DNA of 64,000 nt from Candidatus Saccharimonadota bacterium (GCA_030530605.1 JAUMUO010000002.1:73146-137145); one strand, 5' to 3'. Shown: positions 44,400-56,986, counted from the first letter of the stretch. The notes: a model not told the origin generated them from the letters alone. Numbers and translations are program-made.

Positions 44400-45137
44400 C
44401 TATTCCCCCTCGTTTTCCCCCTCATAGACCGGAATTTCATCCGGGTTTTCTTCCCCGTTCGATTCCCCTTCCCGAACAAAAACCGAACTATTTTCCTCTT
44501 CCTCTGGGGCCACCTCTTCTACTTCTTCTACTCCTATTTCCACCTCTGTTTCTTCCCTGTTATTTTCAGCCGGTTCTTCCTCTTTCTTTCCCTCTTCGGC
44601 CTGCATCGCCCCCTTATAATAACCTTTGCCTTCCACTCTTAAATCCACATACTCCACCCCTTTGAATCCCAGCCCCTTAAGGTAGCGCAACATCCGTTCC
44701 AAATCTTCTGCTGAAACTCCTGCGCCACGGTCTAAAGACAATTTGAAATACCCTTCAAAACCGTCCACGTAAACGTCCACTTCACGAGTCTTATTCCGTG
44801 GCAATACCGCCCGCGTCAGTTTTATTTGGTATTCTTTCAAATCTTGTTCCAAATTGCCCACAAACTCACGCGCCTTCCTAGAAACCCCCACCGACGCCTC
44901 ATCTACAATTTCTATGGTTGGCTTTGCCACATTATTGCCACTATCATCAGAAGATTTTTGCTCTCGACGCATCCCCTTGATTACCGTAAAAACCCCCATA
45001 AAAATCACCGCAATCACCGCAAAAAATATCAGCACTGAAGTAATTTTCCGCTTCTTCACTTTTTCGTGATACTGGAGGCGCTCCGATTCAGACTCGGCTA
45101 TTTCCCTTTTCCCACCAATGGTTTTACCAACCCGCAT
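44400..45137 (-). CDS. Divergent FtsQ-like division protein
   Basis: The 245-residue protein has a cytoplasmic start, one membrane segment (about 33-54) and an outer domain whose end (LERMLRYLKGLGFKGVEYVDLRVEGKGYYK) resembles the last part of FtsQ/DivIB, where a VDLR-type strand is conserved. The POTRA half seems reduced. The last 60 residues are strongly acidic. Its place directly after murG, overlapping by one base (TAATG), is the usual ftsQ position. The name is withheld because similarity is weak. Confidence 0.65.
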   Translation of the reverse strand: MRVGKTIGGKREIAESESERLQYHEKVKKRKITSVLIFFAVIAVIFMGVFTVIKGMRREQKSSDDSGNNVAKPTIEIVDEASVGVSRKAREFVGNLEQDLKEYQIKLTRAVLPRNKTREVDVYVDGFEGYFKLSLDRGAGVSAEDLERMLRYLKGLGFKGVEYVDLRVEGKGYYKGAMQAEEGKKEEEPAENNREETEVEIGVEEVEEVAPEEEENSSVFVREGESNGEENPDEIPVYEGENEGE

Positions 45138-46375
45138 TACTTCCCTTCCTCAGATGGCCCAGCCACTTCAATCAAAATCTTTGCTAGCCTTTCTGCTGAA
45201 TCCGTTGCTGAAGTATCGTGTAAATTCTTCGCCAAAGCTGCTCGCACCTTCGGACTTCTTATTAATTTTCTTACAATCTCCAGTAATTTCTCCGGTTTCT
45301 TCACCATTTCTTCATCCGAAATCACTTCTGCTGCCGAAAGTTTTGAAAGTCTTTCCGCATTTTTTACCTGATGCCCACCAGGAAGCGCCGCATATGGCAC
45401 TAAAATCACCGCTTTAGAAAGAGCTGCCATCTCGGCTATCGTTGTTGCGCCAGCCCGTGAAATAATCACATCCGCCGCTCCCAAAAGTTCAAACATCGCC
45501 GAATTAAATGCCCACATCCTGAAATTAGATTTCAACTTGGCCTTTTCATAAATCTCATATTTCTTTAGGTCTATCATACTCTCATATTGCGTCCGCCCGG
45601 CCACTAGCCCTACCGACGTAAACTTCAACATCTCCGGCAAAATCTCCCGCACCGAAACATTGATATGCTGCGCACCCTGCGAACCACCAGTAATAATCAC
45701 TAACGGTTCTTCCGGATCAAACCCGAAAGTCCGCTTCAATTCTTTTTGACGCGTCGGCGAAACTTTCTTAAATTCCTCCGCCACCGGCACGCCCACAAAC
45801 TTAAATCTTTCGTCCTTAAATTCTTCATTTACCCCCACCGCGACCACGCGAGCCTTCTTCACCAATAATCGATTCGCAAGCCCAAACACCGCATCGCTCT
45901 CGTGTACTACATACGGAATTCTAAGAATCTTACAAGCAATCCCTACCGGAAGCCCTACAAAGCCGCCTTTAAGAAATACCACATCTGGCCGATTTTTCTT
46001 ACCGAGCATCCTGAAGAAACTCTGGAAAATTCCAGCAATAAATCCAAAGAAGCCCACGATATTCAAAAGTATCAAATCCCGAAATGCCACCCACGGGTGT
46101 TCCATATAATCAATAAATTTCCAGCCCGCATAACGACGAAACTTACCCGAAAGAACTTTGCGCACCCGAATATACTGTCTCTTTCCAGATAGTCTATCTT
46201 CTTCACCCCACGACACGCCAATCTCTGTTGTAATTTTCATAACATTAGCATAGTATTTCCTATCCGTCCAAAACTCTACTCGCGTTCGTGGCTTCAATTT
46301 TAGAAGCTCTCTCACCACTGCCACTGCCGGCGTAATATGTCCTCCACTACCGCCTCCAACAACTAAAACCTTCAT
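45137..46375 (-). CDS. murG: UDP-GlcNAc:lipid I N-acetylglucosaminyltransferase
   Basis: MurG makes lipid II from lipid I on the inner membrane face. The 412-residue GT-B protein has VLVVGGGSGGHITPAVAV, the acceptor-loop region, VIITGGSQGAQHIN and VIISRAGATTIAEMAAL with ILVPYAALPGGHQVKNAERL. It overlaps ftsW by 4 nt and the ftsQ-like gene by 1 nt in the minus-strand dcw arm. Confidence 0.95.
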   Translation of the reverse strand: MKVLVVGGGSGGHITPAVAVVRELLKLKPRTRVEFWTDRKYYANVMKITTEIGVSWGEEDRLSGKRQYIRVRKVLSGKFRRYAGWKFIDYMEHPWVAFRDLILLNIVGFFGFIAGIFQSFFRMLGKKNRPDVVFLKGGFVGLPVGIACKILRIPYVVHESDAVFGLANRLLVKKARVVAVGVNEEFKDERFKFVGVPVAEEFKKVSPTRQKELKRTFGFDPEEPLVIITGGSQGAQHINVSVREILPEMLKFTSVGLVAGRTQYESMIDLKKYEIYEKAKLKSNFRMWAFNSAMFELLGAADVIISRAGATTIAEMAALSKAVILVPYAALPGGHQVKNAERLSKLSAAEVISDEEMVKKPEKLLEIVRKLIRSPKVRAALAKNLHDTSATDSAERLAKILIEVAGPSEEGK

Positions 46376-47511
46376 CTAACAATCCTTTCTGTATAACTTG
46401 AACATTGCGAAGCAAGCCCGAGAGCAAACGCCACAAACATCATCGATGTCCCACCATAAGAAAGTAGCGGCAAAGTAATACCAGTGAGCGGTATCAACCC
46501 TGTCATCGCGGCCACATTTACCACTACCTGCGCCATCACCCAACCAAACACTCCCGCTACCATAATTCCCTTTTCCGCGTCTAAAAATGGAATCATTTTT
46601 AGAAGTCTCATTAAAAGAAATGTAAATGCTAAAATCAAAAGACATAGACCAAAGAAACCAAATGTTTCACCCATCACCGCAAACACCGAGTCGTTAATCG
46701 ACTCCGGTAAATAACCAGTCGCTTGTACCGAATTCCCAACCCCCACTCCAAATAAACCGCCAGTACCAATCGCGAGCAAAGCATTGTCAATGTGGTATGA
46801 AGAGTCTGAATCTCCACCACCTTTGAAAGTCGAAAGTCTTTCCATCCGGTGCGGCGAAATCACAATCGACATTACACCAAGAAACCCTAAAATCCCCACG
46901 GCCGCTACAAAATACCGAAGCCTTACCCCGGACATAAACAACGTTGCTAAGATAATCGCCACAATTGTTAAGCCCGTACCAAGGTCTTTTTGAAAAATCA
47001 CTACAAAGAATAAGGAAAGTCCTGAAACCAAAATGTATGGCCACCAGAAACCCCAAAATGATTCTAGTTCCCCTTCTTCTTTTCTTCTTGCCATTAAATC
47101 CGCTAGATAAATCACCAGTGCCACCTTCAAAAATTCTGCCGGCTGAAAACTAAACCCTGCTGTGCCAATCCATCTACAACCACCCAACTGACAAATCGCA
47201 AGTGATGATTTCATTAAAGCCAAGCCCGCCAACGCTGCGTTCAAAATCAGCGCTACGAGCATAATCCACTTGGCATATTTATGTAAAAATTTCACCGGCA
47301 GTTTAGTCGCAATAAAGAACGCGATGATTGAAAGCCCCACTGAAATTAATTGGTGAATAAAGAAATAATTATCCGAGTATTTTTCTACTCCAAGCGCCGA
47401 ATTCAAAAAGTTCGCACGCTGTGGCCCAATCGCAAAAATCACGACCAACCCCACCGCCATCAACGTGAGAGTTACAAGACCTATAAAATAATCGGCTTTA
47501 TGCTTACGCAT
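46372..47511 (-). CDS. ftsW: SEDS peptidoglycan glycosyltransferase FtsW
   Basis: The 379-residue polytopic protein (about ten membrane segments) polymerises lipid II at the septum with its partner PBP. Family marks: GCRWIGTAGFSFQPAEFLKVALVIYLADLMARR and GITLPLLSYGGTSMMFVAFALGLA. It lies between mraY and murG. It has its own leaderless-type promoter within the 46-nt gap after mraY. Confidence 0.95.
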   Translation of the reverse strand: MRKHKADYFIGLVTLTLMAVGLVVIFAIGPQRANFLNSALGVEKYSDNYFFIHQLISVGLSIIAFFIATKLPVKFLHKYAKWIMLVALILNAALAGLALMKSSLAICQLGGCRWIGTAGFSFQPAEFLKVALVIYLADLMARRKEEGELESFWGFWWPYILVSGLSLFFVVIFQKDLGTGLTIVAIILATLFMSGVRLRYFVAAVGILGFLGVMSIVISPHRMERLSTFKGGGDSDSSYHIDNALLAIGTGGLFGVGVGNSVQATGYLPESINDSVFAVMGETFGFFGLCLLILAFTFLLMRLLKMIPFLDAEKGIMVAGVFGWVMAQVVVNVAAMTGLIPLTGITLPLLSYGGTSMMFVAFALGLASQCSSYTERIVR

Positions 47512-47517
47512 ATCTTA

Positions 47518-47526
47518 ATTATACCA
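47518..47526 (-). promoter_or_regulatory. Extended -10 promoter of ftsW, leaderless type
   Basis: On the minus strand TG-G-TATAAT ends 6 nt before the ATG at 47511. Confidence 0.75.
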
Positions 47527-47557
47527 TAAAGACTATAAAACCGGAAACCGCAGAGCA

Positions 47558-48586
47558 CTAGCGCGAAATGATTCCACCAATTGCCGCTAAGAACACGCCC
47601 ACAATTGCCAGCACGCCCGAAATCACCCAAAATCGCATCACAATCTTAGCTTCGCCCCAACCCTTTGCCTCAAGATGATGATGTATCGGCGCAGAAATGA
47701 AAATCTTCCGATGAAAAACTTTTTTGGAAATAATCTGAATTAAAGACGAGCCCGCCTCTACCACCAAAAGCCCGCCAATAATCGGAAGTAGGAGCAACGA
47801 GTTTGTCATCATCGCCACTGCTCCCAGCCCAGCACCGAGCGCAAACGAGCCAACATCCCCCATCATAAATCGCGCCGGCGGAACATTGAACCAAACATAA
47901 GAAAGCAGCCATCCACAAACCGTGAAACAAAATGCCGCCAACATCCATTGCCCCTGGAACAACGCAATCACTCCAAATGAGCCATAAGAAATCATCGCAA
48001 TTCCCCCAGCCAAACCATCCAAGCCGTCTGATATGTTCACCGCGTTGGATGTTGCCACCACCGCAAACGCAAACACGAAAATCATAAACCACTCTGGAAG
48101 CGGCCACTCGCCAATAAACGGCACGTGTATCGAGCTCCATCCAAGTTTAACTGCAAAATACCAACCAAGCGCTACCCCCACGATCGTAATTAAAATAAGT
48201 TTTACTGATGCGCGCAAGCCCGCTGCTCCCTTGCCGGAACCAAACACATTAATCAAATCATCAATTAAACCTACAATTCCACCCGCAACAAAGGCAATTA
48301 GCGGCAACCAAGTTTGTCCTCTTTCCCAATTACAAAGCAGCGTCACAAACCAAACCGTAATCACTCCAATAATGCCCGCCATCGTCGGAAATGCTCGGCG
48401 GAACTTATGCGCGTGAAGTTTCGTCATCACCGGTAATGCCTCGTGGGTCAAAGTTTCTTTTTTCTGTTTCTTCCACCACTTATACTTGTAAGCAAAATAA
48501 GTATAAATTGGCGTCAAAAACATCGCGAGCAGAAACGCGCCAAGTGCTAAAACCAGCCCATAAAACATTTCGCCCTTAATGCTCAT
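47558..48586 (-). CDS. mraY: Phospho-MurNAc-pentapeptide transferase
   Basis: MraY makes lipid I. The 342-residue, ten-segment protein has the family signatures TMAGIIGVITVWF, GLIDDLINVF (DD motif), NAVNISDGLDGLAGGIAMISY and the HHH loop in APIHHHLEAKGWGE. The start shares a base with the ftsI stop (TAATG), implying coupled translation. Confidence 0.96.
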   Translation of the reverse strand: MSIKGEMFYGLVLALGAFLLAMFLTPIYTYFAYKYKWWKKQKKETLTHEALPVMTKLHAHKFRRAFPTMAGIIGVITVWFVTLLCNWERGQTWLPLIAFVAGGIVGLIDDLINVFGSGKGAAGLRASVKLILITIVGVALGWYFAVKLGWSSIHVPFIGEWPLPEWFMIFVFAFAVVATSNAVNISDGLDGLAGGIAMISYGSFGVIALFQGQWMLAAFCFTVCGWLLSYVWFNVPPARFMMGDVGSFALGAGLGAVAMMTNSLLLLPIIGGLLVVEAGSSLIQIISKKVFHRKIFISAPIHHHLEAKGWGEAKIVMRFWVISGVLAIVGVFLAAIGGIISR

Positions 48587-50316
48587 TATTCCGCGCCTCC
48601 TTTATTCGGCTTAATTCTTAAATAATCTATCATCCACATTTTCAAATCTTCAAATACCGGACGAACTTCTTCCTCTGAGGAAGTTGTCCTTCCCTTTTCC
48701 CACATTTTAACAATTATAACATACTCTGGGTGGTCTTGAGAAGCCCCACCAAAGCCAATATAGCCCGAAACGAATTCATCCATCACATAGGCCCCGTCGC
48801 GAATTGCTTGCGCTGTACCGGTCTTACCGCCAAAGTAGTATTCCTCGGGGTCACCCATCCACCACCGTGTATCGTGAAGCATCCCTCGCATTGTCGCCGA
48901 AGTTTCCGGAGTCACCGTCGTCCGCACCGGCTCTTTTTTCTCGGCTTTTTTGAAATTACCATTTTTATCAATATACCCTGCTATCACAGTCGGTTGATAA
49001 TAATAACCTCCATTTATCAAAGAGGACCACCCCGATGCCACTTGTACCATTGTCACATTTAAGCCCTGCCCAAAGGTCATATTAGCATAAGTTGAATTAT
49101 AAGCATACTCGGAATCTGGCGGCACCACCGTCCCAGTGTTTTCATAAAGTTCAATTCCCGTCGGCTGACCCAAACCATAATGGTTGTAATAATAATCATA
49201 CAAAAGCTCCTTCCCTCTCTGCGTAATCTCAGTTGTGCTACCGCCGAGCAACCTAAGTGCTTGTACACTACCAGTATTAAGCGACCACTGGAGCGCTGTC
49301 CGCATTGTAATCTCACCTAGCTGTTTTTCCTTCTGGGCATTATCAATCGGCCATCCATCTACCATTGTCGTGCCCTCGTTGTAATAAGTCGTTTCTGGCG
49401 TCATTTTACCTTCATTAATCGCCGACGCCATTGTAAAACCTTTACAGATACTTCCCGGCTCATACGGAGTTTCCAAAACATCATTGACATAAACACTCGC
49501 GTCTTCTACTGCTCCATAATTTGCCGGGCTATAAGACGGAAATGAAACCATCGCCATTACCTTCCCCGAATTCGGGTCATAAACCATCGCCGAACCGTGC
49601 GAAATCCCCAAATCTTTCATATGCTGTGAGAGCACATCTTCCACCTTTTTCTGGATATTTCTATCTACCGTAAGAACAATGTTCTTCCCATCTTCAGCCG
49701 GAATTCTGATATTATCATCACCTATTGAAAGAGCTACTTTATTCACATCCGTAATAGTTTTAAGCATCCCGTTTTTACCTGCCAATTCTTTATTTAATGC
49801 CCCCTCCACACCATATTGCCCAACCCCATCTGCATTTACAAAACCAAGCGTCGAAGCTGCCAAATCTCCCTCCGCATACACCCTCTGATTAGAAGATTTC
49901 ACATAAGCCCCACCAGGAACTTCTTCAGCAATTTTCAAATAATCTGCTCGCGGTATGTTCTTTGCTATCACTAAATATCTCCGCGACTCGTCCTCAAAAA
50001 TCTCATCCACCGACGAAACTGCCCATCTAGATTTCTCTATTTTTGAAAGCAACTCCGAAACTGCCTCCCGACTTACTGTTTGCGGATCTACTATTACCGA
50101 AAACACCGTCGTATTCAAAACCACCGGCACCGGCTCTTCCCCGTCCAGCATATAAATTTCACCTCGTTTTGCTACGATATCATAAAGCGACGTATGCTCC
50201 GCCTCTGCTTTTGCTACATAAAAATCGTGCTCTAGAATTTGAATCTGAAAAAGCTTCGTCAGTATTACTGCTACCGCTAAAACAAGGCATAAGCGTAGAA
50301 ACTTAACACGTTTCAT
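48586..50316 (-). CDS. ftsI: Septal class B penicillin-binding protein (FtsI/PBP2)
   Basis: A 576-residue transpeptidase that crosslinks septal wall. It has an N-terminal anchor, the PBP dimer domain (AKRGEIYMLDG onward) and transpeptidase motifs SxxK (EPGSICKGF), SxN (WSLNTGS) and KTG (GGKTGTAQ). The ATG at 50316 (MKRVKFLRL) lies 6 nt from the -10; a longer start would sit in the promoter. It heads the minus-strand dcw arm. Confidence 0.95.
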   Translation of the reverse strand: MKRVKFLRLCLVLAVAVILTKLFQIQILEHDFYVAKAEAEHTSLYDIVAKRGEIYMLDGEEPVPVVLNTTVFSVIVDPQTVSREAVSELLSKIEKSRWAVSSVDEIFEDESRRYLVIAKNIPRADYLKIAEEVPGGAYVKSSNQRVYAEGDLAASTLGFVNADGVGQYGVEGALNKELAGKNGMLKTITDVNKVALSIGDDNIRIPAEDGKNIVLTVDRNIQKKVEDVLSQHMKDLGISHGSAMVYDPNSGKVMAMVSFPSYSPANYGAVEDASVYVNDVLETPYEPGSICKGFTMASAINEGKMTPETTYYNEGTTMVDGWPIDNAQKEKQLGEITMRTALQWSLNTGSVQALRLLGGSTTEITQRGKELLYDYYYNHYGLGQPTGIELYENTGTVVPPDSEYAYNSTYANMTFGQGLNVTMVQVASGWSSLINGGYYYQPTVIAGYIDKNGNFKKAEKKEPVRTTVTPETSATMRGMLHDTRWWMGDPEEYYFGGKTGTAQAIRDGAYVMDEFVSGYIGFGGASQDHPEYVIIVKMWEKGRTTSSEEEVRPVFEDLKMWMIDYLRIKPNKGGAE

Positions 50317-50322
50317 ATCTTT

Positions 50323-50331
50323 ATTATACCA
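50323..50331 (-). promoter_or_regulatory. Extended -10 promoter of ftsI, leaderless type
   Basis: On the minus strand TG-G-TATAAT ends 6 nt before the ATG at 50316. Confidence 0.75.
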
Positions 50332-50349
50332 CAAGCAAAATCAAAACTC

Positions 50350-50389
50350 TGTTCGGTTTTTTTGTTCGGTTTTACTACGCTTTGTTCGG
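50350..50389. repeat. Three TGTTCGG direct repeats upstream of ftsI
   Basis: TGTTCGG occurs at 50350-50356, 50363-50369 and 50383-50389, each followed by T or G runs. They overlap or lie just upstream of the ftsI -35 position, so they could be operator half-sites. Confidence 0.5.
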
Positions 50390-50444
50390 GGGAAAACTCT
50401 GGACAAAAAGTGGAAAAGTTTATGCTAAAAACCCGAAAAAACTC

Positions 50445-50473
50445 TTGCAAAATATTTTCTAATCGTTTATACT
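50445..50473 (+). promoter_or_regulatory. Promoter in the ftsI-rsmH gap
   Basis: TTGCAA, exactly 17 nt, TATACT. No gene follows for 310 nt, so it may drive a non-coding RNA or a long rsmH leader. Confidence 0.55.
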
Positions 50474-50479
50474 TAAATC

Positions 50480-50700
50480 AATGGATATCAAAGACAAAAA
50501 TCCATAAAACAAAAAGCACGTTAATATCGTTTGAGGTTGGCCAAATGGGAGTTTTGGTGCGGGTTTAGGACACTCGAAATCAAAACCGTATGCACCTCCA
50601 TTAACACCTCCCAATTAACTCTAATAAATCAACTAATGCACAATAACCTCTCAACTGCCAGGATATGAGATAAACTCCGGTTTATCAGATCGTGGTAAAC
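50480..50700 (+). ncRNA. Candidate structured RNA between ftsI and rsmH
   Basis: Downstream of the promoter at 50445 a nested stem can form: TGGGAG/CTCCCA (50546 and 50608), GGTGC/GCACC (50556 and 50592) and GGTTT/AAACC (50562 and 50583). A second hairpin GATAAAC/GTTTATC follows near 50670. No T-run terminator is seen, so the 3' end is a guess. Confidence 0.35.
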
Positions 50701-50773
50701 GTTATTGTAATAAACAAAAATCGAACAAACACAAACACACTAAAATTCTCATTTGGGCGATCTCAAACAATGG

Positions 50774-50781
50774 TGTATAAT
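50774..50781 (+). promoter_or_regulatory. -10 promoter of rsmH, near-leaderless
   Basis: TG directly followed by TATAAT, ending 10 nt before the ATG at 50792. Confidence 0.65.
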
Positions 50782-50791
50782 ATATACACAA

Positions 50792-51673
50792 ATGAAGACA
50801 TTTCATAATCCTGTATTGTTATCGGAAACAGTGGCAGTCCTAAATCCAAAGGTTGGAGAATCTTACTTAGATCTCACCGCTGGATATGCCGGACACGCCA
50901 GTCAGATTTTGGCGATAACGCGGAATTATAAAAATTCGGTCCTCGTAGATAGAGATGAAAATTCCATTAATTTCTTGAAGGCAAAGTACCAAAATGGTGA
51001 AGCCCCAGAAATCATCCACGACGACTTTTATAGCGCTGCGTTTTCTCTTATCACGTGTGGAAATAAATTCGATATGATACTAGCAGATTTTGGGGTGTCC
51101 TCTCCGCAGCTAGACAACAAAGAGCGTGGCTTTTCATATATAGAAGATGGCCCTCTTGATATGCGTATGGACCCGTCAAAGGGTAAAACTGCCGCTGATA
51201 TTGTTAATCACGGCGGGCTATCAGAGCTTATAGGCATTTTCACTAAATATGGCGAATTAAGTCCCGGTCTTTCCCGAAAAGTTGCTTTGCGTATTATTAA
51301 GTCTCGGCCACTAAATACCACTATGGCCCTAGCGGAAACAGTTAAAACTGTTCTTCCCCGCCGTGGTCGTATCCATCCCGAAGCCCGTGTATTCCAAGCC
51401 ATCCGTATTGCCGTCAACGACGAGCTTAGTATCATAGAAAAAACGCTGCCACTTCTGCCTGATTTATTGAATCCAGGTGGGCGCGTCGCAATCATCACTT
51501 TTCACAGTCTAGAAGATCGGTTAGTAAAAAATTATTTCAAGGAAGCGACTTCCTATGGCGAAGAATCTCAGCTTGAAATAATCACTAAAAACCCAGTCGT
51601 GCCGGAGAGTTTGGAGCTCGGTATCAACCCTCGTGCTCGCTCCGCGAAACTTCGCGCCGCTCGCCGAGTTTAG
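50792..51673 (+). CDS. rsmH: 16S rRNA (cytosine-1402-N4) methyltransferase
   Basis: RsmH (MraW) methylates C1402 of 16S rRNA. The 293-residue protein shows HNPVLLSETVAVL, LDLTAGYAGHA (SAM loop), ILADFGVSSPQLD, RGFSYIEDGPLDMRMD and ITFHSLEDRLVKNYF. The internal ATG at 50792 is preferred over a longer frame because it follows the -10 and fits the family start. It heads the plus-strand dcw arm. Confidence 0.96.
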   Translation: MKTFHNPVLLSETVAVLNPKVGESYLDLTAGYAGHASQILAITRNYKNSVLVDRDENSINFLKAKYQNGEAPEIIHDDFYSAAFSLITCGNKFDMILADFGVSSPQLDNKERGFSYIEDGPLDMRMDPSKGKTAADIVNHGGLSELIGIFTKYGELSPGLSRKVALRIIKSRPLNTTMALAETVKTVLPRRGRIHPEARVFQAIRIAVNDELSIIEKTLPLLPDLLNPGGRVAIITFHSLEDRLVKNYFKEATSYGEESQLEIITKNPVVPESLELGINPRARSAKLRAARRV

Positions 51674-52468: not shown

Positions 52469-52474
52469 TATAAT
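52469..52474 (+). promoter_or_regulatory. Candidate promoter of the DGR template RNA
   Basis: TATAAT in an AT-rich run, followed by TATTAT at 52476-52481. No good -35 or extended TG is seen. It lies just before the structured leader of the template repeat. Confidence 0.45.
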
Positions 52475-52481
52475 ATATTAT

Positions 52482-52735
52482 AGAAGGAGTATCCGGTCCC
52501 CTGAAGGCATATCGCCCTCGAGGATAGCCTTTTGCCCGACCGGCTCAATAGGAAGATGGGAGATACCCTTGAAAAATTAAAATTCAAGACACATACAGAT
52601 TAGTGCGAGTTTCCTACGGGAAGCTCTGCGACCCCAAGTTGTCTCCAAATATACCAGTTCTGTTCGTTGTTACTGTGTGTGGGTACGGCGAAAGTTCAGG
52701 TGAGTCGGAATTCAACTGGCAAAAATCGTACTTAA
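52482..52735 (+). ncRNA. Structured 5' leader of the DGR template RNA
   Basis: A non-coding stretch with CCGGTC/GACCGG (52493 and 52538) enclosing AAGGC-TATC/GATA-GCCTT, then CTTGAA/TTCAAG, AGTTTCC/GGGAAGCT, and a closing helix CCAGTT/AACTGG (52654 and 52714) that ends 16 nt before the template repeat. It most likely forms one transcript with the repeat. In the Bordetella phage DGR the RNA beside the template is needed for cDNA synthesis; a similar role here is inferred. Confidence 0.5.
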
Positions 52736-52959
52736 GCAGGTTTCTCGTACTCCGGGAACTGGAATGGTACGAATGATAGCGCCAGCAACGTTGGTTCCAA
52801 CGGGAACTATTGGTCCGCCTCTGTTTACAATACCAACAACGGCTACAACCTGAACGTCAATTCGTCCTATGTGAACCCCCAGAACAACAACAACAAGAAC
52901 AACGGGAACGCCGTACGTTGCGTACGTTCTTAGTAGTCTTTCCCCCAGCATCTTCCTTC
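52736..52959 (+). repeat. DGR template repeat (TR)
   Basis: A 224-bp non-coding copy of the 3' end of the target gene, read on the plus strand. It differs from the variable repeat (55196-55419, minus strand) at 24 sites, and each is an adenine here (14 to T or more, the rest mainly to G). Its sense strand is full of AAC codons, the substrate for adenine mutagenesis. Both copies continue 27-35 bp past the target stop codon. Confidence 0.97.
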
Positions 52960-53037
52960 AAAAAGCACTCCTTTGAAATCGAGCCTCTCGCCCACGCTTG
53001 CGTGACCGAAGGACCAATGAGGCTCCAAAACCAAATC

Positions 53038-54183
53038 TTAAAATTTGTACTCCCACCCCACTGATTCAAAGACTTTACTGTTCAATTTTTTTGAACGAAG
53101 GTGCTTCCCCATCCCAAGATACGACGTTATTGATTCATCGTCTCTATAGTTATTCATATATTCCTCAACTGCTCGATAAAAATTTGCCACGAACCTTTTC
53201 CCAGGCAACAATCGGTCTCTATAAACTTTTACTCCTAAGAACGGCGCTCCTTTATAGACCGGCTGTATATAAATCTTGTCTGGGTGCATCCTATGCCCCA
53301 TATCTTCTAAAAATTCTGGTACCACTTGTTCAAACATCAATTTCGCGTATTCAAACTCTTCCTCCGGCACGATAATATAAAAATCGTCCACATACCGCCC
53401 ATAATATTTAAATCCCAGGTCAAACTTCATAAATCTATCAAACGGATCAAGGTTGATATTCGACAATAGCTGCGAGGTTAAATTTCCAATTACAATTCCC
53501 TGCCCCACTGGCTGACAAAACAAACTTTTATTATTTGGTAATGGCTTCCACTCTTTTTTCCCACCTGCCATCCTCACTCTATAAACTGGATCGTCAAAAA
53601 TCACTTCCCGCCACAGAAACCGACAAATCTCATACTCCCAACCCCTTTCTGGAAACTGTCTATCAAGCCCCCACAAAATTCTCTCAAATAAAAGTTCTCG
53701 ATTCAGACTCATAAAATACCCCGAAATATCACCTTTCAGTATATATGCTTCTCTAGTTCCTGCCTGTGTCGCTTTTTCCATAAAATGTTGCATCCTTTGT
53801 GCTCCCAAAAGCGTACCTTTACCATCTCGGCAAGAATAAGAATCATAAATAAAATGCCTATCCCACCAGTATCCATTCATCGCGTACAAAAAATGGTGCA
53901 CAATTCTATCCCTAAATGGCGCCGCAAAAATTTCTCGTATCACCGGGTTATGCGTAATGAACGCTTTCCCTCGGCTCGGATGATAAATTCTGTGAATAAT
54001 ATCATAATCGAGCTGCTTCAAATTCTCATAAAAATACATTTCAAATTTATGTTCATCTTCCGTTCGCATCTTGGCTCGCTTGGCCATATTATAAGATTGC
54101 CAAAGCGCATCCAGCAGGTCATCGTCACACTCTGGGATTCTCATAAATTGATTTTTCGAAGTTCTACTTTTATTTGTTCTCAT
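53038..54183 (-). CDS. DGR reverse transcriptase
   Basis: The 381-residue enzyme copies the template RNA into mutated cDNA. RT motifs are visible: ILKGDISGYFMSLN (catalytic Asp152), QGIVIGNLTSQLLSN (232-238 is IGNLTSQ, the variant typical of DGR RTs rather than the QG...GG.. form of group II introns) and YVDD (264-267). No maturase or endonuclease domain follows. It overlaps the accessory gene by 4 nt (ATGA) and lies between template and variable repeats, converging with the template RNA. Confidence 0.96.
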   Translation of the reverse strand: MRTNKSRTSKNQFMRIPECDDDLLDALWQSYNMAKRAKMRTEDEHKFEMYFYENLKQLDYDIIHRIYHPSRGKAFITHNPVIREIFAAPFRDRIVHHFLYAMNGYWWDRHFIYDSYSCRDGKGTLLGAQRMQHFMEKATQAGTREAYILKGDISGYFMSLNRELLFERILWGLDRQFPERGWEYEICRFLWREVIFDDPVYRVRMAGGKKEWKPLPNNKSLFCQPVGQGIVIGNLTSQLLSNINLDPFDRFMKFDLGFKYYGRYVDDFYIIVPEEEFEYAKLMFEQVVPEFLEDMGHRMHPDKIYIQPVYKGAPFLGVKVYRDRLLPGKRFVANFYRAVEEYMNNYRDDESITSYLGMGKHLRSKKLNSKVFESVGWEYKF

Positions 54184-55142
54184 TTCTTGTTTTTACCTTT
54201 GTGCTCGTTTTCAATTTTCTGTACTGCTAATTTTTTCTTTTCAAAAATAATTTGGTTGCGCAATTTAGACAAAAGTCCTGCTATTTCTAATTGTTTATCA
54301 TCGTTCATAATTCTAAGTGGTGAAAGCATTAAAAAGTATCCGTCTGCCCTATCCACATTTTCCATTGCAAAATCTAAAAACGCTTCCGCATCACCATCAC
54401 TCTTTGCTATCACGGTATATTCTACTCCGATATCTCTAATCAATCCTGCCAGTTCTCTGCCAATCATCAATTTTGGCAAATCGCTCATATCCTTAAACGC
54501 CCAAAAAATTGTCCTAAAAGTTTCTTTTATATCCTCAAAAAGATTTGGCATCATTTCTTTTGGTTTTATCATTTCGTTCGCTCGCTCCACTAATGCCTGA
54601 GTTTGTTTTCTTAGCAAATTATATTCGTCGGTCTTAATTCTTTTCCCCAGACTAAAAGTGTAGATTTCATCTTTCGCATCAACTAATTCAACTCCTACCC
54701 GTTCTAGTTTTTCTGCCAAAGTTTTGATATTTGGCACACTTACAAATCCTTCCCTGCTCTGAAATTGATAATCTTTATCAGCCTGCAACTTGGCTTTAGA
54801 ACCTATTTTATTTTTATACAAAGCGTCAAAATATACCGCTGAACGCCCAAACGCCTTATACCACGAGTTTTTTGATGGCGACTTTATAAATATCATTTCG
54901 GTCTGATTTTTCTTTTCCCGCTGAAGCACTATTCGCTTCTTTTCGTAGTAGCGCAAAGACTCTTTTCTTCCCTCAGATGAACTTTGCGATGCTGGCGCAG
55001 TCACTTTCTCGAGTGTTGGCTCCAGCGGCACCAAAGGCGCCGCTGTCGCAAGTTCCTCCGGCTTTTGGGCCGGAGGAACTGTCTTCTTTGCCGCTCCAAA
55101 GAGCGGCAAAGAATCTATTTCTGCCTGTATTTTTTTACCCAT
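54180..55142 (-). CDS. DGR accessory protein: MutS-I-like region plus Avd-like helical bundle
   Basis: The 320-residue protein has a disordered Pro/Ala-rich start, a middle region (about 90-175: MIFIKSPSKNSWYKAFGRSAVYFDALY, then GFVSVPNIKTLAEKLERVGVELV) resembling mismatch-recognition domain I of MutS, and a C-terminal helical part (about 215-305) with the pattern of Avd four-helix proteins (LPKLMIGRELAGLIRDIG, FLDFAMENVDRADGYFLML). Both assignments are by eye. Coupling to the RT (4-nt overlap) and position support an Avd role. GGAGG lies 7 nt before the ATG. Confidence 0.7.
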   Translation of the reverse strand: MGKKIQAEIDSLPLFGAAKKTVPPAQKPEELATAAPLVPLEPTLEKVTAPASQSSSEGRKESLRYYEKKRIVLQREKKNQTEMIFIKSPSKNSWYKAFGRSAVYFDALYKNKIGSKAKLQADKDYQFQSREGFVSVPNIKTLAEKLERVGVELVDAKDEIYTFSLGKRIKTDEYNLLRKQTQALVERANEMIKPKEMMPNLFEDIKETFRTIFWAFKDMSDLPKLMIGRELAGLIRDIGVEYTVIAKSDGDAEAFLDFAMENVDRADGYFLMLSPLRIMNDDKQLEIAGLLSKLRNQIIFEKKKLAVQKIENEHKGKNKK

Positions 55143-55160
55143 CTCAATTCCTCCATCTTA

Positions 55161-55194
55161 CTTGATGCTTATCATTATAACTCTTTTCATCAAG
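55161..55194. repeat. Inverted repeat between target and accessory genes
   Basis: CTTGATG (55161-55167) and CATCAAG (55188-55194) flank a TATAAT on the minus strand. The repeat starts 2 bp beyond the variable repeat. Confidence 0.6.
55174..55179 (-). promoter_or_regulatory. Candidate promoter of the accessory-RT operon
   Basis: TATAAT on the minus strand, 31 nt before the accessory ATG, inside the CTTGATG inverted repeat. Confidence 0.5.
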
Positions 55195-55195
55195 A

Positions 55196-55419
55196 GAAGG
55201 AAGATGCTGGGGGAAAGACTACTAAGAACGTACGCAACGTACGGCGAACCCGCGGTACTTGTCGTAGTAGTACTGGGGGTACACATAGGACGAATTGACG
55301 CTCAGGTAGTAGCCGCTGTCGGTATTGAAAACAGAGGCGGACCAATAGAACCCGTAGGAACCAACGAAGCTGGCGCTACCATCCGTACCATCCCAGTACC
55401 CGGAGTACGAGAAACCTGC
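55196..55419 (-). repeat. DGR variable repeat (VR)
   Basis: The 3' end of the target gene plus 27 bp beyond the stop. All 24 differences from the template repeat are at template adenines, altering 20 residues between 516 and 566. The last 49-50 bp are identical to the template in spite of adenines and contain CGTACG-TTG-CGTACG (55229-55243), which can form a hairpin; this tail fits the invariant initiation region of DGRs. Confidence 0.97.
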
Positions 55420-56943
55420 ATTGTTATTAGCTGTATTAGTAGCAAGTGGTGAAGCGGCTTCCAAATATACTTTGTTTTTTACAGTCGAGTTATTGTTGCG
55501 ATAATTATATGCTGTTTCGGAGTTACTCCAACCACTGGAACCATATTGTTTAACGAGATAGGTGAAATCGTTATCACTACCAACTGAAGAAATTGAGCCA
55601 GAGGTAGTATTTGGGGTATGTGGTAGATGCCAATTTGCTGGGCAGATGTCTCGAGTGGAGGTACCGTGGTCTATTCCGTCATTATAATAGGAATAGCCTA
55701 AAGTAGCAGTGTAGAAGTTGTAGTAGCCAGTGTCGCTGTCGTTAGTGTAGCTAGCATTTTTAGTTCTGAACCGGGTTTTAGCGTGAGCGTCTATGGTAGC
55801 GTCTGAGGTGAAGTTCGCTGTTCCTGGGGTGCCACTTACATTTGGAACCTGTGTAATTGTGCCGGTTCCTTGTTTGCCGGCTGGCGGGAGATAGTAGGTG
55901 TTGGTATCTTCTGCTGGGATATTGGTGTCGGAAGAAGTGAGAGCAAGGCCGGAGTTATCTGAAACAGTAGAACCAATGGTGAGGTTTTGCATCATCCAGC
56001 ATTTACCATCTGGAAGTTTCTTTACGGCGTACTGTTTACTATCTCGCACGTCGGTGAGCATAACAGAAGCATTAGCGGCTAAACTTGAACAGCCGGTCCA
56101 ACCTTGCATTGTGTCTTCACCATAGCCGTCTTGTTCCCAAATCGCATAAAGATTAGCTGTTTCGCCCGAAGCCGCCAAATCTGTCACAGCAGCCTCATCG
56201 GCATAATCCACATCCGCCGCCGTACCGACGCCGTTTACCGCCGTGCCAGTCTTCCCTGTCGCTTGAGTCGCCCAGCCGAGGAACTTATAACCATCTCTTT
56301 CAAATGAATTCGCGGTCAAAGCCGTCGCTACCGCCGGCGCAATTTTCTGGTCTGTCATTGTTCCTGTACCACCGTTCGCATCGAAATGGACAGTATATTT
56401 CAAACACTCCGAATTTACCATTGCCGTATAAAGCACCTGGCCAGTATAGCTACCTGGCGCACTGCTACTTGTTACCTTTACACCGTAATAAATCGGCAGA
56501 GAAGTCGCCGTGCCAGTGTAAAGCGGCGTCCCAGGATTTGCGGAATAGGCCGGCAAGCCGTAATAAGTGTCCCCACCTGTGATGTTCAAGCCCCAGGTAT
56601 TACTGGAGAGCGCTGCGGCCGTCTCACCTATGCTTGCGGAAACAGTCGGGATAGAAGACGAGGTCGCGGCGTTTGTAAGCGCGGTACTTCCCCCATTTAC
56701 TGCGGAAACATATAAATTTACACCCTCTGCACAGTTCGTCGTGATCGTCAGAGTGTCTTGACCAGTCGCCACCGTACCGGTGCTAGACGGCAAGATTTTC
56801 CCGAAAGAAACCTTACCGCCGGCGTTGTTCGATATTGTCACGGTTGTTTCTGCAAAAACCTCAGCAGAACAAAATACCGCAGCAAACACTGCCGGCAAAA
56901 ATACCATTAAAACCTTAATAAACTTGTTTACCCATTTCCGCAT
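55222..56943 (-). CDS. Secreted DGR target protein (InlB repeat and FISUMP-type variable domain)
   Basis: The 573-residue protein has a signal peptide (1-31), a Thr/Ser-rich beta domain (32-180), an InlB-type repeat (183-270: VHFDANGGTGTM, GYKFLGWA, LYAIWE) and a C-terminal domain (277-573) like the Fibrobacter major paralogous (FISUMP) family: CWMMQNL, CPANWHLPH, FYWSAS, GFAVRCVR. The last 60 residues are the variable repeat; many varied sites are Tyr, Phe or Asp. No wall anchor follows. AAGGAGG precedes the ATG. It probably binds a variable surface ligand. Confidence 0.93.
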   Translation of the reverse strand: MRKWVNKFIKVLMVFLPAVFAAVFCSAEVFAETTVTISNNAGGKVSFGKILPSSTGTVATGQDTLTITTNCAEGVNLYVSAVNGGSTALTNAATSSSIPTVSASIGETAAALSSNTWGLNITGGDTYYGLPAYSANPGTPLYTGTATSLPIYYGVKVTSSSAPGSYTGQVLYTAMVNSECLKYTVHFDANGGTGTMTDQKIAPAVATALTANSFERDGYKFLGWATQATGKTGTAVNGVGTAADVDYADEAAVTDLAASGETANLYAIWEQDGYGEDTMQGWTGCSSLAANASVMLTDVRDSKQYAVKKLPDGKCWMMQNLTIGSTVSDNSGLALTSSDTNIPAEDTNTYYLPPAGKQGTGTITQVPNVSGTPGTANFTSDATIDAHAKTRFRTKNASYTNDSDTGYYNFYTATLGYSYYNDGIDHGTSTRDICPANWHLPHTPNTTSGSISSVGSDNDFTYLVKQYGSSGWSNSETAYNYRNNNSTVKNKVYLEAASPLATNTANNNAGFSYSGYWDGTDGSASFVGSYGFYWSASVFNTDSGYYLSVNSSYVYPQYYYDKYRGFAVRCVRS

Positions 56944-56977
56944 AGGTTACAAACCTCCTTATTGTGTTTATGTATCT

Positions 56978-56986
56978 ATTTTAGCA
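56978..56986 (-). promoter_or_regulatory. Extended -10 promoter of the DGR target gene
   Basis: TG-C-TAAAAT on the minus strand, about 35 nt before the ATG at 56943; the gene also has a full AAGGAGG site. Confidence 0.6.

Follow-up and report, generated by a model that had tools for sequence, protein, structure and literature searches.

Positions 52469-56986 of a 64,000-nucleotide stretch of Candidatus Saccharimonadota DNA (GCA_030530605.1 JAUMUO010000002.1:73146-137145; hereafter the window, from whose first letter all coordinates without a locus prefix are counted) hold a complete diversity-generating retroelement (DGR). DGRs of this kind are already known, but the layout of the RNA is unusual: the template repeat (TR) lies on the strand opposite to the reverse transcriptase (RT) gene and is preceded on its 5′ side by a conserved folded leader. 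We are confident that this is a chromosomal DGR in which a template RNA with its own promoter and a folded leader serves the RT and an Avd-like accessory protein in rewriting a secreted, lectin-like target. The source is a tiny Saccharibacteria-type bacterium with a 0.68-Mb genome and is probably host-dependent. The genome carries three DGRs; neither this number nor the accessory protein or structured leader was part of an earlier sequence-only reading of the same DNA.

The repeat pair and the layout of the template RNA

The element in the window has five principal parts:

52736-52959, plus strand: TR1, the template repeat (program alignment)
53038-54183, minus strand: DGR-type RT, 381 amino acids (aa), with IGNLTSQ and YVDD motifs, intact (open reading frame, ORF)
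54180-55142, minus strand: accessory protein, 320 aa (AlphaFold2 model and structure comparison)
55222-56943, minus strand: target gene, 573 aa, with a signal peptide, a List-Bact repeat and a FISUMP (Fib_succ_major) domain ending in VR1 (Pfam)
55196-55419, minus strand: VR1, the variable repeat (program alignment), of which 55246-55196 is the unaltered 3′ end, resembling an initiation of mutagenic homing (IMH) site

When the 50-60 kb portion of the window was searched by program, TR1 (52736-52959, plus) and VR1 (55419-55196, minus) were the sole inverted pair of at least 30 nt; the inversion reflects a TR encoded on the other strand from the RT and target genes. The two align over 224 nt with 0 gaps and 24 differences, every one at a template adenine (15 A>T, 8 A>G and 1 A>C), and similarity stops abruptly on either flank. 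TR1 holds 60 adenines, 36 of them unaltered; given this composition (60/224), the probability of 24/24 differences falling on adenines by chance is 1.9e-14. VR1 occupies the last 65 codons of the target and extends 26 nt beyond its stop codon. Its changes fall 16 times at codon position 1, 8 times at position 2 and 0 times at position 3, and 20 residues differ between the peptides encoded by TR and VR. The altered adenines span TR positions 22 to 173, with none among the last 50 nt. These last ~50 bp of VR1, in which all 6 template adenines are unaltered, are the non-mutated, IMH-like homing end. The sequence-only reading had placed two ungapped 224-bp repeats at these coordinates and strands, with 24 differences at template adenines (mostly to T or G, once to C) and 20 altered target residues; the program alignment it had proposed as a check reproduces each of these counts and yields zero non-adenine differences.

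An RT relative was found in 94/174 genomes of the genus, with up to four per genome. The genus sample comprised 95 loci with a TR/VR pair, 63 in a first set and 32 in a later set (from 40 previously unseen loci, L099-L138). In the first set, 1285/1357 mismatches were at adenines, a figure that is not an independent test of adenine bias, as the pair search favored adenine mismatches and required 75%; under letter-blind scoring, the 32 later loci gave 694/761. The TR lies 3′ of the RT gene on the opposite strand in 91/95 loci (61/63 and 30/32), and in most of them the VR keeps the orientation of the RT gene, such that the TR alone is inverted. Outside the genus, 21 TR/VR pairs from the phylum were read; in 17 the TR lies 5′ of the RT gene on the same strand, and 3 have the inverted layout.

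Around the TR, we found the following features:

52469-52474, plus strand: TATAAT, probable −10 element of the promoter for the template RNA, some 265 nt upstream of the TR (count of leaders in the genus)
52559-52646, plus strand: structured leader with helices P1 (52559-52565/52640-52646), P2 (52568-52573/52583-52588) and P3 (52604-52614/52619-52630), the last closed by a UACG loop (52615-52618)
52981-53025, plus strand: hairpin GAGCCTC/GAGGCTC, 3′ of the TR, between the TR and the RT stop codon (hairpin search)

TATAAT, whose first position coincides with the start coordinate (52469) of the sequence-only reading, occurs within 350 nt 5′ of the TR in 58/94 genus leaders; the expectation from the other strand is 0.25 per 350 nt. 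A generic sigma-70 scan did not list the site at 52469-52474; from its recurrence in the genus, we consider it the probable −10 element. On the other side of the TR, the distance to the convergent RT stop codon is 81 nt in the window and 1-132 nt in relatives, and a strict terminator-like hairpin lies 3′ of the TR in 13/95 loci (0 in shuffles) and 5′ of it in 2/95. Since the gap is short and in some loci contains a terminator-like hairpin, the TR is probably transcribed as a small RNA of its own.

The P1-P2-P3 fold of the window leader has z = -3.5. Treating 52470-52740 as one whole fold gave a z of only -1.0, which places the signal locally. The pattern that recurs among relatives is TATAAT followed by the 7-bp helix P1, with CNCU after its 5′ strand and AAGN before its 3′ strand. 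A covariance model was built from 11 sequences on P1 only, as the MAFFT alignment missed P2 and P3, which were tested by counting. This model retrieves the leader of the second DGR of the genome (DGR2, below) and those of many relatives. Across 33 matches, 7/7 P1 pairs covary, with 57 double-changed cells compared to 13.3 in shuffled alignments; P1 is 98.3% paired versus ~50% for slid partners, a percentage inflated by selection that was partly for pairing, which affects the kinds of change less. P2 was found in 25/32 leaders (7.8 expected). A P3 capped by a YNMG loop was found in 17/32 (0.7 expected), and this cap mostly lies 21-26 nt from the 3′ strand of P1. In the 40 unseen loci, the model gave 8 matches with modest scores (13-24 bits), of which 6, including the best five, lie 15-125 nt 5′ of the TR on the TR strand (p about 2e-9). 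A strict motif scan was too narrow for distant relatives and was rejected as a leader finder, with 1 doubtful match (L128) in the 32 unseen TR/VR loci versus 6 for the covariance model. At L058 and L064, the TR differs in position or orientation relative to the RT gene, and the leader is still 5′ of the TR. In addition, at L036:2444-2604, a second match to the model immediately precedes, on the 5′ side, a short additional TR-like fragment located between the RT gene and the main TR, an arrangement that looks like a duplicated or remnant TR RNA.

The leader had no match in Rfam, and the model had none at E <1 in 28 loci from elsewhere in the phylum. A text search of the literature found no description of such a leader; Paul 2017 (DGRs of the candidate phyla radiation, CPR), Wu 2018 (DGR classification) and Handa 2025 (an RNA-bound structure) were outside its scope and might describe one.

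What might the leader do? Conserved and linked to the TR, it is our best candidate for a recognition or stop signal. An alternative, which we consider unlikely but worth weighing, is that the DGR is the same and the leader is a regulatory element of the TR RNA, such as a promoter-proximal riboswitch or attenuator, instead of a part recognized by the RT complex. A location near the 5′ end of an apparently separate transcript with its own TATAAT would suit such an element. However, the position of the leader is fixed to the TR and not to any ORF, the leader moves with the TR when the orientation of the RT gene changes, the regulatory families of Rfam give no match, and the terminator-like hairpins occur 3′ of the TR and hardly ever 5′ of it.

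Several points limit this reading of the leader. On the 3′ side of the TR, folding is nearly as strong as in the leader (mean z -1.22 versus -1.33, mononucleotide shuffles) and occurs in many loci; a recognition structure may lie there, perhaps extending antisense into the RT gene. A clear leader is present in about one third to half of loci, the remainder being diverged or without one. Finally, the leader was first spotted by eye, and the test on L099-L138 alone is free of that choice.

Three retroelements and recent diversification

A search of the bacterium's own genome with TR1 found six places, including two further complete DGRs:

DGR2, contig C2: accessory gene L008:4445-5263; RT gene L008:5260-6405; TR2 L008:6718-6459, minus strand; target L008:9975-7747, minus strand; VR2 L008:7939-7680
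DGR3, contig C5: target L010:3587-5332; accessory gene L010:5395-6399; RT gene L010:6396-7544; TR3 L010:7841-7611, minus strand

Their RTs are 68% (DGR2) and 56% (DGR3) identical to that of DGR1, the element in the window, and none of the three DGRs has a disrupted RT, accessory or target ORF. Differences between each TR and its own VR are solely at adenines (19/19 in DGR2 and 18/18 in DGR3). A fourth variable segment, on contig C8 (L009:7010-7201), lies amid a 1192-aa protein and differs from TR2 at 21 positions, 21/21 at adenines, bringing the four pairs to 82/82. Searches of the genome with TR2 and TR3 found no additional places. In these pairs, the first A of AAC was changed in 42/64 cases, the second in 26/64, lone adenines in 5/46 and those of AAG in 0/8; the AAG (Lys) codon of each TR is never changed, as replacing its first A by T would create a stop codon.

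Recent diversification shows in the C8 segment. It differs from VR2 at 27 positions, all of them template adenines of TR2, while the adjacent upstream 578 bp are identical. At least one of these VRs was therefore rewritten after the block was shared, and on this comparison the DGR is recently active, although an assembly error is possible. The sequence-only reading had argued for recent activity from the lack of other kinds of mutation; its conclusion stands on the firmer basis of the identical flank, and also on the adenine-specific pairs of a related species. The closest named relative (L007, a Ca. Saccharibacteria metagenome-assembled genome from roe deer jejunum) has an RT that is 76% identical, and the description of the source as Saccharibacteria-type is based on it. 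Its TR differs from TR1 chiefly at positions other than adenine (17/21), and TR/VR pairs in its species are still adenine-specific.

That the DGR is decayed or inactive, with its last round long ago, is very improbable given three copies with intact RT, accessory and target ORFs, 0 non-adenine differences in four pairs and the changes beside the identical flank. That ordinary mutation with selection, or an editing enzyme, produced the pattern instead of reverse transcription agrees with changes at A alone, and we regard it as negligible, as A is replaced by each of the other three bases, every pair lies next to a DGR-type RT, and TRs differ between species chiefly at non-A sites.

Could C8 be an active second target of TR2? 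The shared block ends at the stop-codon position and is without the last 68 bp of TR2/VR2, including the homing end, which makes a copied block likelier. C8 may thus be a stored copy of an earlier state of VR2. The 1192-aa protein (L009:5061-8639) contains three FISUMP/lectin-like domains, with the TR2-related segment in the first only, mid-protein; the other two resemble variable domains and have no known TR in this assembly.

Reverse transcriptase, accessory protein and target

The sequence-only reading had called the element a full DGR with a DGR-type RT between the repeats, and all of its parts were found, with an Avd-like accessory gene in addition. The solved structure closest to the RT is the BPP-1 DGR RT (8ub7_A, E 1.8e-21), followed by a group II maturase (6me0, 1.7e-6). 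For four RT relatives (G163:C5, G166:C31, G172:C16 and G139:C22), two separate stretches match within a single long reading frame (415-672 aa), a pattern suggestive of a sub-group whose RT has an insertion about halfway along.

The accessory gene shares 4 bp with the start of the RT gene. The AlphaFold2 model of its product (predicted local distance difference test score, pLDDT, 87.5) has a disordered N-terminus, an alpha/beta domain (about 80-165) and an Avd-like four-helix bundle (about 197-310). The bundle reaches VIA Z values of 12.9 to BPP-1 Avd (4dwl, 8ub7_E; root-mean-square deviation 2.1 over 109), 15.5 to 2gsc and 14.0 to 2rld (S23-like), to be read with the structure-comparison tool's warning that helical bundles may reach Z 13 through common arrangement alone. 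The S23/Avd family accounts for 6/7 top structural entries, and Pfam bAvd touches 2/35 accessory relatives weakly (E 0.17). Judged from the model, the protein has an Avd-like fold. A profile match to GGA1 was discounted as a chance resemblance between helical bundles. Some DGRs have been reported to carry MutS-like (MSL) accessory genes, and the N-terminal domain here may be MutS-I-like: hhalign gave a weak match to MutS_I (probability 7.9%, E 0.0044, 75 columns), and Pfam MutS_I occurs in 1/35 members at E 0.04.

In the target, Pfam scores are 43.3 bits for PF09603 and 38 bits for PF09479, and the signal peptide was read by eye. The variable end is lectin-like, with most of the top nine structural matches resembling C-type lectins; the best are the Legionella Lcl C-terminal domain and Bdellovibrio Bd2740 (8q4e, Z 8.1; 8oks, Z 7.7), matches of moderate strength from a model with pLDDT 73. 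Just downstream of VR1 is one further feature:

55161-55194, no strand assigned: hairpin CTTGATG/CATCAAG (hairpin search)

Window positions 45137-51673, next to the DGR, hold a cell-wall and division cluster (murG, ftsW, mraY, ftsI-like and rsmH, by eye) with no evident prophage. A prophage origin was rejected on the basis of these neighbors and of the phage RTs among the matches listed, which are at most 35% identical. No relatives were found in viral_contigs.

Proposed mechanism and comparison with known systems

In the mechanism we propose, the TR RNA would be transcribed from its own plus-strand promoter, starting near 52480, and would pass through the folded leader and then the TR toward the 3′ end of the convergent RT gene. 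The RT and Avd-like accessory protein would copy this RNA into cDNA, inserting random bases opposite template adenines, mostly those of AAC. The cDNA would replace VR1, so that as many as about 20 residues could change on the binding face of the secreted lectin-like protein. The leader may recruit the RT-accessory complex or stop cDNA synthesis, and the target may bind a host or prey cell of the bacterium. It is also conceivable, at what we would put just short of an even chance, that the Saccharibacteria-type DGRs form a clade with a separate, convergent small template RNA that is read via a 5′ three-way junction and not a 3′ spacer, with start and stop of cDNA controlled unlike in BPP-1 and with products that can be copied into another gene, as in C8.

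To our knowledge, RNA recognition by DGRs is understood in one phage system. Another layout, in which the leader is compact and conserved and the RNA apparently discrete, allows a direct comparison of how cDNA synthesis starts and stops, and this system may be easier to reconstitute in E. coli. A 0.68-Mb genome with three recently active diversifiers, all acting on secreted lectin-like proteins, would fit the idea of tiny epibionts that invest scarce genome in changing how they bind partner cells.

The element resembles the BPP-1 DGR in its RT, which is nearest in the PDB, its Avd-fold accessory protein, adenine-specific TR/VR pair and lectin-like target, and in the hairpin beside the VR, comparable in position to the BPP-1 stem-loop downstream of the IMH. 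In published descriptions of canonical DGRs, the structured RNA follows the TR on its 3′ side; RT-Avd binds this folded part and cDNA is primed there, and synthesis is stopped by a motif within the avd sequence upstream. In BPP-1, it is the spacer separating the TR from brt, 3′ of the TR, that folds and recruits bRT-Avd (PMC12875486, PMC8867640). Such a layout, with structured RNA after the TR, between TR and RT and on the same strand, was not found here. Instead, the TR is 3′ of the RT gene on the opposite strand, with a promoter-like site of its own and a folded leader on its 5′ side, and the accessory protein, unlike BPP-1 Avd, has an extra N-terminal alpha/beta domain.

Like the Patescibacteria (CPR) DGRs, which are clade 2 of Roux et al. 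2021 (PMC8144416), this DGR is cell-encoded and from the same phylum; compared with them, its target has recognizable secretion and FISUMP domains. The relatives we sampled in the phylum differ in having mostly a TR 5′ of the RT gene on the same strand, and no leader match. Nanoarchaeal genomes with several DGRs (Paul et al. 2015, PMC4372165) also combine paralogous DGRs in a tiny genome with extra VRs elsewhere, although their targets are orphans, whereas here the genome is bacterial and three DGRs have lectin-like targets. Finally, a reversed RT is a known minor cassette pattern (G5 of Yan et al. 2019, PMC6642488); in this genus, by comparison, inversion is the rule, mostly involves the TR alone and is coupled to a conserved leader.
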